NCBI GenBank assembly: GCA_023261755.1
Contig: JAGDXS010000030.1
Location: 1-36,177 of the forward strand
Length of the DNA stretch: 36,177 nucleotides
Direction of reading: 5' to 3'
Source of the DNA: Thermoplasmata archaeon
GTDB lineage: Archaea > Thermoplasmatota > Thermoplasmata > Thermoplasmatales > ARK-15
Shown here one piece after another: positions 17,073 to 28,436 of the stretch; within the stretch, counting starts at the first letter, position 1, and every line of letters begins with the position of its first letter. Below the pieces are notes generated by a model. That model saw only the letters and a program-made list of their open reading frames with translations. It had not been told where the DNA came from and made no database searches. Position numbers and translations under genes: made by a program.

Positions 17073-17144
17073 AATTTTGTAATTAATTAATCATATTAAA
17101 AACATGGGGATTAATTTAATTTCCCAGAAGATCATGTAAAAATT

Positions 17145-17693
17145 ATGGAATTGAGTACAGAAATTTATTCTTACGGTACATTGAACATCATGAAATACGA
17201 GGAAAATTTCCCCTGGGAAAAAATAATCGTAGATGCGATGAGATATGGATTATCTGTATACCTTATATTCGGAAACTATGTGAATATGAATTTAAGGCTG
17301 GTGCATACAACACTTAAAAGGCTTAAAATGAATGAAAATATAACAATAAGAAGAGGTTTTACATACTATCAGCTCCTTGAAATTGTTCTAGAAATTAATT
17401 CCTATTATGACATCATAATATTTTTCCATGATCCCATATCATTTAGAGACCTATCTTCAGATGAAAAATTTACATTGTCTCAAGCAGTGATGCTTAATCT
17501 CTTTAAATACGCTGAAATGTTCGATTCAATTACTGTATTTGCTCACACAGAATCTTTTAATTTTAAATATACAGTTAAAAGAATTGAGGTAAATCCTGTT
17601 AGAAAAGGTTGGAAGATAACATCAAATGGTAAAGAGTTATTTATTTATTATGATCCATTACAGGTTCCGCTTGATTATTTTATGGAGGTATGA
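17145..17693 (+). CDS. Uncharacterised protein, candidate degenerate RecA/RadA-like fold, first gene of the polB2-like operon
   Basis: Strand/helix pattern SVYLIFGN...NITIRRGFTYYQLLEIVLEI...YDIIIFFHDPISF...FDSITVFAH resembles a RadA core, but there is no Walker A GxxxxGKT. Leaderless-type TATA about 28 nt upstream. Confidence 0.45.
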   Translation: MELSTEIYSYGTLNIMKYEENFPWEKIIVDAMRYGLSVYLIFGNYVNMNLRLVHTTLKRLKMNENITIRRGFTYYQLLEIVLEINSYYDIIIFFHDPISFRDLSSDEKFTLSQAVMLNLFKYAEMFDSITVFAHTESFNFKYTVKRIEVNPVRKGWKITSNGKELFIYYDPLQVPLDYFMEV

Positions 17694-17696
17694 ATA

Positions 17697-17936
17697 ATGG
17701 GAAGGAATGTTTCATCAATGCGTGAAGAAATAAATCGAATTCTTGAAAGATGGAAATCATATGAGAGAGCAATGAAAGAAAGTGATAAAATTGCTATGGA
17801 AAAGATAATTGAAAAAGTAAAAAGGCATTCTGGAGAAGCAATGTACGCTTTGGACGACCCTCTCGAAGCTGTTATTTTATCAATTCTTGTTGAAATGCAG
17901 AAGGAGATAGAGGCAATAAAAAATGGTACTAATTGA
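17697..17936 (+). CDS. 79-aa alpha-helical, highly charged small protein
   Basis: ORF tightly packed between 17693 and the polymerase gene, overlapping the latter by 14 nt; REEINRILERWKSYERAMKES...IEKVKRHSG helical pattern. Confidence 0.65.
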   Translation: MGRNVSSMREEINRILERWKSYERAMKESDKIAMEKIIEKVKRHSGEAMYALDDPLEAVILSILVEMQKEIEAIKNGTN

Positions 17937-19905
17937 TATTGATGTTGGGCAAAGGGTAACTTTATATTACAAAGAAAATGATAAAATAAAATATAAAACA
18001 GATGAATTTATCCCTGAAATTCTCCTTTTTGGAAATGAAGAACAGTTAGAATCACTTTACAATGAAAATATTCCGAATGTTATTTATGTTAAAAGCAAGA
18101 AGATAAATACGGTGAGTGAAGTTCTTGATGGTACAGCTATAGGCGTAAAACCATCATATTTTTTCCAGATCGCATCATTTCTCAACAAGTATTTTAATTA
18201 TTATAGTGTAAAAATGTTTAACGTTGATATTAGACTAAGTGTAAGATACATGGCTGAAAAATCAATATTTCCATTTATGGATAACAAGGAAAGATTTTCT
18301 GTACCCGATATTTCTGGAATTAAAATATTATATATTGAAAATAAAAATAATTATTTAAAAATTCAAAATAATGAAATTTATATCTATAATTATATGAAAA
18401 TAGAAGATCAAATTTTAGAGATTGATCCAGATATTATAATATTTCCTGGTGCAGATGAGATAATTTTAAAAATTTATGAAAAGGCAAGGAGAGATGGAAA
18501 ATACTTTAATTTAGGAAGACAAAAAGGATGGATTGAATTGAAATCCAGGGAATATTTTTCATACGGAAGGGAATTTTACAAAGAAAAAGCATTGATACCT
18601 AAAGGTAGAATATTGATAGACCCGGATTCAAGTTTCATATTTAGGGAAGGAGGATTGGAAGGTGTTATTATGACATCACGCGTATCATCTTTGCCTGCAT
18701 CTTACGCAGCCAGGGCAACTCCTGGAACTCTTGTATCAACACTTGAGGTATATGAAGCTCTGAGAAAAGGTATTGCTGTACCATACCATAAATATGAATC
18801 AGAAAGGGAGAAAACTATAGAACAATTGATAAAAGCTGACAGGGGAGGAATAGTTTATCAGCCAAGGCCAGGTATTTACTGGAATGTTAAGGAGTTTGAT
18901 TACACATCAATGTATCCTTCAATAATTGTGAGAAAGAATCTATCCATAGAAACTGTGAATAAAAATTGCACAAAATATGAAATTGTACCTGAAATTAATT
19001 ATACCATTTGTAAAGACAAACCAGGTTTTTTATCATCAGCACTTAAACCTTTGCTTGAACTAAGAATTAAAATGAAAAAGATGAAAAAATTTGAAAATAG
19101 ATATACAGGCATTGATAATGCTTTAAAATGGATGCTCGTAACATCATTTGGCTATACTGGATACAGGAATGCAAAATTTGGGTCAATTGAAATTCATGAA
19201 GCAATAAACGCTTATGCGAGAGAATATTTGCTCAAAGCCAAGGAAATACTTGAAAAGAATGGGTTTGAAATAATACATGGAATTGTCGATTCCTTATGGG
19301 TAGCAGGCAAAGGAAATGCTGAAAATATTGTTAATGAAATTAATGAAATCACAGGTCTTGATATGGATTTTTCTGGAGATTATTTTTGGATGAAAATAAT
19401 TCCAGAAAAGAGTGAAATTTCAATCGGTGCTCCTGGTAAATATATTGCACTTTCAGAAAATGGTGATTTTAAGGTAAGGGGGATAATGCTAAGGAGAGGA
19501 GATGTTCCTGACATAATAAAGGATTTTCAGAATGATGCATTAAAAATTTTAAATGAATTGAAAAGTGAAGATAATCTAGAAAAAATTAGAATTTCCTTAA
19601 AGAATATTTTCCTTAGCTACAAAGAAAAAATAGAAAGAAGGTCAGTTGAAAAAGAAAAATTCCTGATTGAAAAAAGGGTGAATAAATATCCATGGGAATA
19701 TAGTTTGAAAACAGCTGAATACATTCTTCTTGAAAATTTTTATGAAAAAGGTGAAATAAAGCATCCAGGTGAAAAGATAAGATATATGGTTTATTCAATT
19801 GATCCAATAAGGGCTGTGGAAGACTCAAGGATAAAAAATTTTGATTATTCAGTTCAATTCTATTTAAAATATCTAAGGGAAGCTTATAATGAAATACTGC
19901 CTTAA
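17923..19905 (+). CDS. polB2: Divergent family-B DNA polymerase, PolB2-like
   Basis: Motif A KEFDYTSMYPSIIVRKNLS, motif B NALKWMLVTSFGYTGYRNAKFG, variant motif C IHGIVDSLWV (canonical YGDTDS). No recognisable exonuclease FDIE motif in the N-terminal half. Confidence 0.85.
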   Translation: MVLIDIDVGQRVTLYYKENDKIKYKTDEFIPEILLFGNEEQLESLYNENIPNVIYVKSKKINTVSEVLDGTAIGVKPSYFFQIASFLNKYFNYYSVKMFNVDIRLSVRYMAEKSIFPFMDNKERFSVPDISGIKILYIENKNNYLKIQNNEIYIYNYMKIEDQILEIDPDIIIFPGADEIILKIYEKARRDGKYFNLGRQKGWIELKSREYFSYGREFYKEKALIPKGRILIDPDSSFIFREGGLEGVIMTSRVSSLPASYAARATPGTLVSTLEVYEALRKGIAVPYHKYESEREKTIEQLIKADRGGIVYQPRPGIYWNVKEFDYTSMYPSIIVRKNLSIETVNKNCTKYEIVPEINYTICKDKPGFLSSALKPLLELRIKMKKMKKFENRYTGIDNALKWMLVTSFGYTGYRNAKFGSIEIHEAINAYAREYLLKAKEILEKNGFEIIHGIVDSLWVAGKGNAENIVNEINEITGLDMDFSGDYFWMKIIPEKSEISIGAPGKYIALSENGDFKVRGIMLRRGDVPDIIKDFQNDALKILNELKSEDNLEKIRISLKNIFLSYKEKIERRSVEKEKFLIEKRVNKYPWEYSLKTAEYILLENFYEKGEIKHPGEKIRYMVYSIDPIRAVEDSRIKNFDYSVQFYLKYLREAYNEILP

Positions 19906-25405: not shown

Positions 25406-25426
25406 TTGAAATTTTTCTTTTTTTCC

Positions 25427-27358
25427 ATGGATATTGCTGAGGATCTTGCTAAAAAGCAAAAGGAAATATCGATTGCTGAATTTTTTGAAAAAAATAAGCA
25501 GATCCTTGGCTTTGACTCGCCACAGAAGGCCCTGGTAATGGCGGTTAAGGAGGCAGTGGACAATTCTCTAGATGCATGTGAGGATGCAAGAATATTACCC
25601 GAGATTTATGTTACAATAGAAAGGGTAGAAAAGGATGAATATAAATTAACAGTTGAAGATAATGGTCCAGGAATTGTGAGGCGTGAGGTACCTAAGGTGT
25701 TCGGTCAATTTCTTTATGGATCCAGATTTCATGCTGTACGTCAAACAAGGGGGCAGCAGGGTATAGGTATATCTGCAGTAGTTCTCTATGGGCAGCTTAC
25801 AACGGGTAAACCTGTTAAAATAGAAACAAAAATAGCATCTGAAGATGTTGGTTACGTTTTTGAGATTTTAATTGATACTATAAAAAATAGAGCAAATGTT
25901 CTAAGGGAAGAACCTGCTATATTGAATAAAAAGAGTGGTGTAAAAATTGAAGTTAATCTTAAAGCTAAATATGTAAAGGGAAAGCAGAGTGTAATTGATT
26001 ATTTGCAGAATACAGCTATTGTTAATCCGCATGCAACTATAATTTTTAATGATCCAGATGGTCTTAAAATTAAATATGAAAGGGTATGGGATCAGCCGAT
26101 AGAGCCACCTAAGGAAACTAAGCCACACCCCTTAGGCGTTGAAATAGGAGAAATAATGAAAATTGCATCTTTAACAAATGCAAAAAAAATATCCACATTC
26201 CTAACTGGGGAATTCAGCAGAATAAGCAATAATCTAGCCATGGAAATTTGTAAAATATCTGGAATAGATTCTGAAAAGGATCCAAAAAAATTAACATTGA
26301 ATGAAATTAAAGCTTTAAAGGATGCTTTTACAAAGGTAAAAATACTTCCACCATCATCCGAATCATTAAGTCCCATAGGTGATACTCTTATAAAGAAAGG
26401 GTTGAAAAATGTTCTAGGGGAACTTAGGCCAAGTTTTTACTCAATCCCTGTTACAAGGAATCCATCAGTCTATTCAGGAAATCCATTTGTTGTTGAAGTA
26501 GGTTTGGTATATGGAGGTAACATACCACAGGATGAACCTGTAAAAATATTAAGATTTGCAAACAGAGTGCCTTTACTATATCAGGCAGGATCTTGTGCAT
26601 TAACAAGGGCAGTAGAAAGCATTGACTGGAGAAAATATGGTCTTGAACAGAGAGGAGGCCAAGGAATTCCCGTTGGGCCGATGATCATTCTTATACATAT
26701 AGGATCCACAAGGGTGCCTTATACATCAGAAGCAAAGGAGGCAATTGCTGAAATACCTGAAATAATGAATGAACTTGACCTTGCACTTAAGGAATCTGCA
26801 AGACAAATTAGAACATTTTTAATCAAGAAGGAAGTAAAGACGAAGCTAACTGAAAAATTCTTCCTTGTCCAGAAAATTCTTCCAAAAATTGCTGAAAAAA
26901 GCTCTATAATTTTGCAGAAGCCTGTACCAAAGCTTGAACCTGTAATTACGAAAATTATGAATGTTGTCTGGATAGATGAAAAAATAGAACAAAATAAGGG
27001 AAGTGCAAAGATAAAGGTATCTGTATCAAATTTCACCCCTGAAAAAAAATCTTTTAAATTGTATGGGGACATATCTGAGGGCAAAATAGAAGTTAAATCA
27101 ATTAAACCATTCGGTAATTATGATGAAAAAAATGATTACATATTATGGGAAATAAATGACCTTGAACCATTAAAAGAAATAAATCTGGAATTTACTGTTT
27201 ATGATCTAAAGTCAGAATATGGAGAATCTGTATATTATATTGAAGGAATAAACCCTGTTTATGTTGTGGGCGCTGAACCACTCCCAGGTGATTGGAACAT
27301 CGAAGCACTTAGATCCATAATTGAAGAAGAGGAGGAAGAAGAGAATGGAGAAGAATAG
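25427..27358 (+). CDS. top6B: DNA topoisomerase VI subunit B
   Basis: GHKL ATPase: [78 protein letters not shown] 25427 is preferred over TTG 25406 on promoter spacing. Confidence 0.97.
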
Positions 27359-28436
27359 ATATGAGCTTGCACTTGAATCATTAAAAGATATTGTAAAAAA
27401 TATATACGAGCAGATGGAAATGGGTGAAATACCATCTATGGAATTGCCTGCAAGGAATAAGTATAATATTAAACTCGATCTTAAATCCGGTGTCTGGAAA
27501 TATGGTGATTCAAAAATAACAAGGACAGCAAAGAAAATAGATGGTGCATATACACTTTTAAGAACAATGTACATGATGGATTTTATCAGGGAGATGGTTG
27601 AAGAAAATAAATCATCTACTTTGAGGGAATTATACTATATTTCTGAAGGATGGGATCTTGCAAAATTCCATACACAGGATGAATCAAATAAGCTTGCAGA
27701 GGATCTTGAAATAATTACAAAATTTCTTAGAGAAGATTTTAAGCTCAGGCCTGAGGAGGATGGTGCTACAGTAATAGGAAACATCACATTCGAAGAAATA
27801 AATAGAAAAGGAAATCCGCAGAGGATTAATTGCAGGGATGATGTTGGCGATGCTGGATACGCAATCCCTTACAATGTTGAAAAAGAGAAGCTGAAAATCA
27901 TAGATTACGACGCTGATTTTGTACTCGCAATTGAAACTGGTGGTATGTTTGATAGATTGGTAGAAAATGGGTATGATGAAAAGGCTAGATCAATTCTTGT
28001 CCATTTAAAAGGGCAACCAGCGAGGAGCACAAGGCGTCTCCTAAAAAGACTAAACGAAGAACTTAATTTACCAATACTAGTTTTTACTGATGGTGATCCA
28101 TGGTCTTTCAGAATTTATGCAAGCGTTGCCTATGGTGCCATAAAGACTGCGCATTTATCAGAATATCTGGCGACACCAACAGCTGAATTCATTGGAATTA
28201 CAGCAAGCGATATAGTCAACTATGATTTGCCTACGGACAAATTAAATGATAAGGATATTCAGGCATTGAATGCTGAGCTCACTGACCCCAGGTTTAATAC
28301 GCAGTTCTGGAAAAATGAAATTGAACTTATGCTTAAACTAGGTAGAAAGGCTGAACAGCAGGCACTAGCAAAATATGGTTTGAATTATGTTACAGATGTT
28401 TACCTTCCAGAAAAGGTATCGGAGCTAGGAATATGA
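27345..28436 (+). CDS. top6A: DNA topoisomerase VI subunit A (Spo11-like)
   Basis: [12 protein letters not shown] (5Y-CAP active Tyr), [62 protein letters not shown] 27345 with GGAGG SD, overlapping top6B. Confidence 0.97.

Follow-up and report, generated by a model that had tools for sequence, protein, structure and literature searches.

The window, by which we mean the whole 36,177-nt stretch of Thermoplasmata archaeon DNA analysed here, carries three genes in the order iRadA–PPB2–PolB2, with a 3-nt gap between the first two and a 14-nt overlap between the second and third according to the open reading frame coordinates (Table 1). These coordinates, the protein sizes, the spacing and the polymerase motifs are exactly as given in the original prediction made from this DNA. 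In same-family relatives the gene order is identical, iRadA and PPB2 are 2, 2 and 12 nt apart, and PPB2 overlaps PolB2 by 16–17 nt, so the tight packing of the trio is not due to chance. The genome is a 1.22 Mb draft (93% complete), for which the closest named records, all MAGs, are Euryarchaeota MV2.Eury, Aciduliprofundum sp. ARK-15 and Thermoplasmata KMA_Bin14.

Table 1. Coordinates of genes, motifs and other features at the PolB2 locus of the window.
Feature	Position	Strand	Description
Intergenic promoter region	17073..17144	+	Common to the operon and divergent pus10; without the tandem CAYTT element of other families
iRadA	17145..17693	+	182 aa; predicted truncated, ATPase-dead RadA/Rad51-like subunit; GNYVNMN loop at the RadA Walker A position
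Putative PCNA-interacting (PIP-like) motif QVPLDYF	17661..17681	+	iRadA C-terminus, residues 173–179
PPB2 (arCOG07300-type)	17697..17936	+	79 aa; PolB2 small partner; N-terminal MGRN arm and R9
PolB2 catalytic subunit	17923..19905	+	660 aa; from NF004416, AF2 and Foldseek
PolB2 loop	18775..18852	+	Short predicted helix, then ADRGG [D(K/R)] motif (D306); insertion relative to replicative PolB
Motif A FDYTSMYPSII	18895..18927	+	D326 kept
Motif B region LKWMLVTSFGYTGY	19123..19164	+	From sequence and alignment with replicative PolB
Motif C HGIVDSL	19276..19296	+	Ile in place of the first DTD Asp; D456, the second Asp, retained

The operon is flanked by core archaeal genes (KsgA, DUF655, Rpb4, L21e, divergent Pus10, an M20 peptidase, GltX, NOG1 and Topo VI B), and orc1/cdc6, SRAP and DUF72, which have been reported as enriched near polB2, were not found among the 10 flanking genes we scanned. 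B-family polymerases are often carried by mobile elements, and the polymerase could in principle be of casposon-like or viral origin instead of belonging to a chromosomal damage-tolerance module. However, the flanking genes are core genes, there is no tRNA within the window, and iRadA and PPB2 are partner genes in most relatives, all of which make a mobile element very improbable here. We note that the Topoisomerase VI B gene and the next gene, which resembles the A subunit, are located at positions 25406–28436, ~5.5 kb downstream of the operon on the same strand, and are followed by an NFACT/RqcH-like gene in what is apparently an ordinary arrangement.

The polymerase scored 546.6 bits against NCBIfam NF004416 (cut-off 516) and 79.2 bits against Pfam DNA_pol_B, and is closer to the PolB2-type model than to replicative PolB, with the DNA polymerase I/II type models falling far under their cut-offs. 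It shares 33–56% identity with the PolB2 proteins of relatives and about 26–33% identity, over part of its length, with replicative PolB. The AF2 model (pLDDT 89.9, pTM 0.84) has solved archaeal B-family polymerases as its best Foldseek matches (E 7e-38), and the PolB2-type assignment of the original prediction is therefore borne out by sequence (NF004416 and the motifs) as well as by predicted structure. Two loci in the genome match DNA_pol_B, namely PolB2 and another, separate B-family polymerase on contig C8, at its edge.

As a reference for the polymerase motifs we used the aligned replicative PolB from G001, a relative in the same genus. Motif C is HGIVDS in PolB2 compared to YGDTDS in the replicative enzyme, as expected from the earlier reading that the first Asp of DTD had been lost (most PolB2 proteins have a substitution at this Asp), and the motif B-like stretch, KWMLVTSFGYTG, keeps the motif B Lys. 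The exonuclease motifs, which the original prediction could not see, are indeed missing, with Exo I (FDIEN) and Exo III (YCIND) of the replicative PolB corresponding to deletions and Exo II (YNIDGYD) to an unrecognisable FPGADEI. The lost Asp and deleted exonuclease could be taken to mean that PolB2 is catalytically dead and that the trio assembles into a complex with a regulatory or structural function, e.g. in initiating replication or at stalled forks; in 2014, PolB2 was predicted to be inactive and to act in origin recognition or regulation (PMC4104785). We consider this unlikely, however, as D326 (motif A), K402 (motif B) and D456 (motif C) are invariant in the 28 PolB2 sequences compared, which would be unexpected for a dead enzyme and argues for a working active site in the window PolB2, and as Sulfolobus islandicus Dpo2, with the same kind of loss (IID), is yet a robust polymerase (PMC8764526). 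PolB2 also has a loop insertion just before the GG of the GGY motif which ends in the D(K/R) motif ADRGG and in which AF2 predicts a short helix (residues 299–305), and K290, E294, D306, G308 and G309 of this loop are invariant among the PolB2 proteins compared. The published models have the region before the D(K/R) motif docking iRadA and the motif itself holding the PPB2 arm (PMC11791011).

The first gene encodes a protein of 182 aa without sequence matches in Pfam, NCBIfam or PDB. An AF2 model produced using 29 sequences (pLDDT 83.5, pTM 0.79) was compared to PDB structures by Foldseek, and all 50 of the 50 matches listed were to RadA/Rad51/RecA-family proteins (E 5.4e-8 to 2.9e-6, TM up to 0.72). 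HMMER searches of PDB and Pfam using iRadA alignments returned only noise, and a pairwise HHalign comparison with RadA gave E 0.26, with the best local match pairing VRRaFTa-QL with vARAyNS-HQm of RadA, so the link between iRadA and RadA rests on predicted structure. The predicted RadA/Rad51 fold is without the N-terminal domain and ATPase residues, and the loop following the first strand of the core is GNYVNMN and not a GxxGxGK[ST] P-loop, leaving Walker A absent. Residues N44, R70, F72, T73, Q76, D96 and Q173 are invariant in the 29 sequences, and the iRadA orthologues of Methanomicrobia and Archaeoglobi have the GNY, RRxFTxxQL and HDP motifs in common with the window protein. Judged by its modelled fold, the 182-aa protein is iRadA, a truncated RadA/Rad51 core. 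The original prediction had proposed a RecA-like partner, to be given up if the protein turned out to have an unrelated fold; this did not occur, and AlphaFold2 and Foldseek point instead to RadA/Rad51 (E down to 5.4e-8).

Further Rad51-family matches show that the window genome has an ordinary RadA in addition to iRadA: two of them, on contigs C3 and C13, are apparently parts of a split RadA, and another on C9 is of RadB-like size. PCNA is also encoded in this genome.

The second gene can be assigned from its sequence. M1, G2, R3, R9 and D54 are invariant in 18 PPB2 proteins from Thermoplasmata, Methanomicrobia and Archaeoglobi, and the published PPB2 signature consists of the MGRT motif, Arg3 and Arg9 (PMC11791011). 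The 79-aa protein has the size (about 80–90 aa), the MGR(T/S/N) N-terminus, the two Arg residues and the position beside polB2 of a PPB2, and with its invariant MGR...R9 arm we identify it as such, an identity which the original prediction had not provided. PPB2 is a three-helix protein and a homotrimer in the published models (PMC11791011).

PolB2 was found in most genomes of the order by protein search. Among the Thermoplasmata relatives, 28 of the 29 loci we read have iRadA–PPB2–PolB2 in the same order as the window, the remaining one being truncated at a contig end, and the trio was also seen at many of 80 named archaeal loci including those of Methanomicrobia and Archaeoglobi, where the loci without a called partner have the upstream gene beyond the contig edge or missed by a simple motif filter. 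The three genes are thus adjacent, in the same orientation and conserved, and the search for the triplet in other archaea which the original prediction had suggested comes out in its favour. Translesion polymerases of the Y-family (IMS, PF00817) had no match in the window genome or in four members of its family (G001–G004), and the 51 order genomes that are at least 90% complete include 28 with PolB2 and no Y-family match, eight with both, four with Y-family only and 11 with neither. The system is dispensable, because one member of the window's family (G004, 96% complete) has no PolB2 and no Y-family match.

The iRadA C-terminus carries QVPLDYF, which fits the PIP core pattern QxxLxxF and lies in a tail with low pLDDT in the AF2 model; of the motif positions, Q173 is invariant and L176 nearly invariant in the 29 iRadA sequences. 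When the motif was scored as Q..[LIM]..[FYW] within the last 16 residues, it was found in 4/4 iRadA and 0/4 PolB2 proteins of the window's family (f1), in 12/12 PolB2 (e.g. QKSIEDY) and 0/12 iRadA proteins of the neighbouring family f3, and in 15 of 793 other ORFs used as background (1.9%). A ‘shuttling’ clamp motif has been described by Timinskas et al. 2025 (PMC11791011), and the swap between f1 and f3, as read from these sequences, reproduces it inside one order. Many iRadA proteins, though not all, have such a C-terminal clamp-binding motif, and in the window's lineage the complex would be tethered to the clamp through it. Across loci L003–L032, the PIP-like motif was never seen on both iRadA and PolB2 in the f1 and f3 sets.

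Most PolB2 operons of families f3 and f6 are preceded by a tandem T-rich element, CAYTTNYWCAYTTTT (or, in the f3 form, TCA plus T-run repeats), which has an 8-bp period and lies 53–71 nt upstream of the iRadA start (loci L007–L032). Scores upstream of polB2 operons were 10–22 bits compared to shuffle means of about -1 to 4, and are partly high by construction as the PWM was derived from these sites, while nre sites are independent of it. Nre is a PCNA-linked archaeal repair family, and five of 29 nre upstream regions scored 12.7–20.0 bits at -53 to -63 with a sixth at 8.9 bits; the sites with the element (L169, L170, L172, L175, L180 and L185) come from two genera. The radA upstream regions scored as background, and the exact tandem pattern is rare, with 0–3 sites per genome. 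The tandem CAYTT/T-rich element is a candidate operator of a DNA-damage regulon. No copy was found in the window or in its family, and searching the literature for a similar motif in Thermoplasma brought up nothing relevant. One-mismatch CAYTT sites were ~twofold more frequent than in a reversed control in genera g16 and g14; a genome-wide regulon was nevertheless rejected, as neither exact sites nor one-mismatch sites (G036 and G055) gave a consistent DNA-repair set beyond polB2 and nre. Two other elements were also discarded. The Sulfolobus UV-promoter hexamer ANTTTC occurs once in the 72-nt intergenic region (at 17118) and carries no weight there because about 300 copies are found across both strands of the window, and CATGGGGA, common to the upstream regions of the window genome (G000) and G001, is based on too few data and was missing from G003.

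We conclude, with a probability of about 0.88, that the trio codes for a translesion holoenzyme built around PolB2 (the ‘PolB2 mutasome’), in which iRadA would tether the complex to PCNA in this lineage. PolB2 would be an exonuclease-less B-family polymerase which probably extends primers beyond a lesion or mismatch, and iRadA, having the RadA fold without an ATP site, would bind it by a surface mimicking the RadA–RadA contact and hold the complex on PCNA by the QVPLDYF tail. PPB2 would insert its N-terminal MGRN arm into the PolB2–iRadA cleft near the DNA and so stabilise the active form. The extender activity, damage induction and complex stoichiometry and contacts are suggested by Sulfolobus work and the published models, and the damage-tolerance role of the window operon by Sulfolobus Dpo2. 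In S. islandicus, Dpo2 is damage-inducible, promotes survival at a mutational cost and accounts for all targeted mutagenesis (PMC7390963), and the purified enzyme has no exonuclease and efficiently extends termini that are mispaired or face a lesion (PMC8764526); strains without PolB2 and/or PolB3 have mild phenotypes, e.g. insensitivity to acute peroxide (PMC8100216).

A broader proposal, which we put forward tentatively and think rather less likely to hold than to fail, is that the PolB2 mutasome is the sole dedicated bypass polymerase of a Y-family-less lineage and both inserts and extends, reaching PCNA through a dead RadA subunit, with the clamp contact moved to the polymerase in a sister family and the operon, in some genera together with nre, placed under a new tandem CAYTT operator in two sister families. 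If it is the sole bypass polymerase of the lineage, then it must insert as well as extend. The PolB2 mutasome is confirmed here as widespread in Thermoplasmata, and neighbouring families with the clamp motif on different subunits allow the idea of a ‘shuttling clamp motif’ to be tested on naturally occurring variants, while the order genomes with PolB2 and no detected Y-family polymerase are a clean setting for the question of translesion synthesis by PolB2 alone.

The window operon is a well-preserved but ordinary representative of an archaeal gene trio that is already known. The new elements here are the lineage, the change of subunit by the clamp motif within one order, and a possible regulon. 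Makarova et al. 2014 (PMC4104785) reported the iRadA–PPB2–PolB2 operon, and Timinskas et al. 2025 (PMC11791011) modelled its products as a heteropentamer, the ‘PolB2 mutasome’, with high-confidence models of the three-protein complex for 40 complexes. The mutasome reading of the original prediction was essentially right; that the trio already had a description and this name in the literature had not been recognised there. The name ‘Thermoplasmata’ is absent from the main text of the 2025 study. Compared to the published system, the window shares the gene order, three subunits, MGR...R9 arm, D(K/R) motif, loss of the first DxD Asp, exonuclease decay and clamp motif in iRadA. It differs in that this Thermoplasmata-related member is known from genes and predicted folds, in a very diverged iRadA (about 20% identity to methanogen iRadA) and in a PPB2 arm of MGRN instead of MGRT. 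Sulfolobus Dpo2/PolB2 likewise has an IID/IVD motif C, no exonuclease and identical operon partners (PMC7390963, PMC8764526), although S. islandicus also has the Y-family Dpo4, of which no counterpart was detected in the window genome or the four family members. Escherichia coli Pol V (UmuD'2C–RecA) similarly combines a polymerase with a RecA-family subunit and a small subunit with an arm into the active site (PMC11791011). It differs in having a Y-family polymerase, an active RecA, and UmuD' in place of PPB2. Bacterial ImuA/ImuB/DnaE2, to which the original prediction compared the operon, follows the same logic of a RecA-like accessory, a further accessory and a damage-tolerance polymerase per operon, but DnaE2 is a C-family polymerase and ImuB a Y-family-derived protein, whereas the window has a B-family polymerase with PPB2 as the small subunit and no Y-family match in the genome. 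Direct homology between the two is therefore highly doubtful, the accessory proteins also differing and the likeness being one of logic and not of descent beyond the RecA/RadA superfamily; the comparison stands as an analogy, and Pol V is the closer published parallel.
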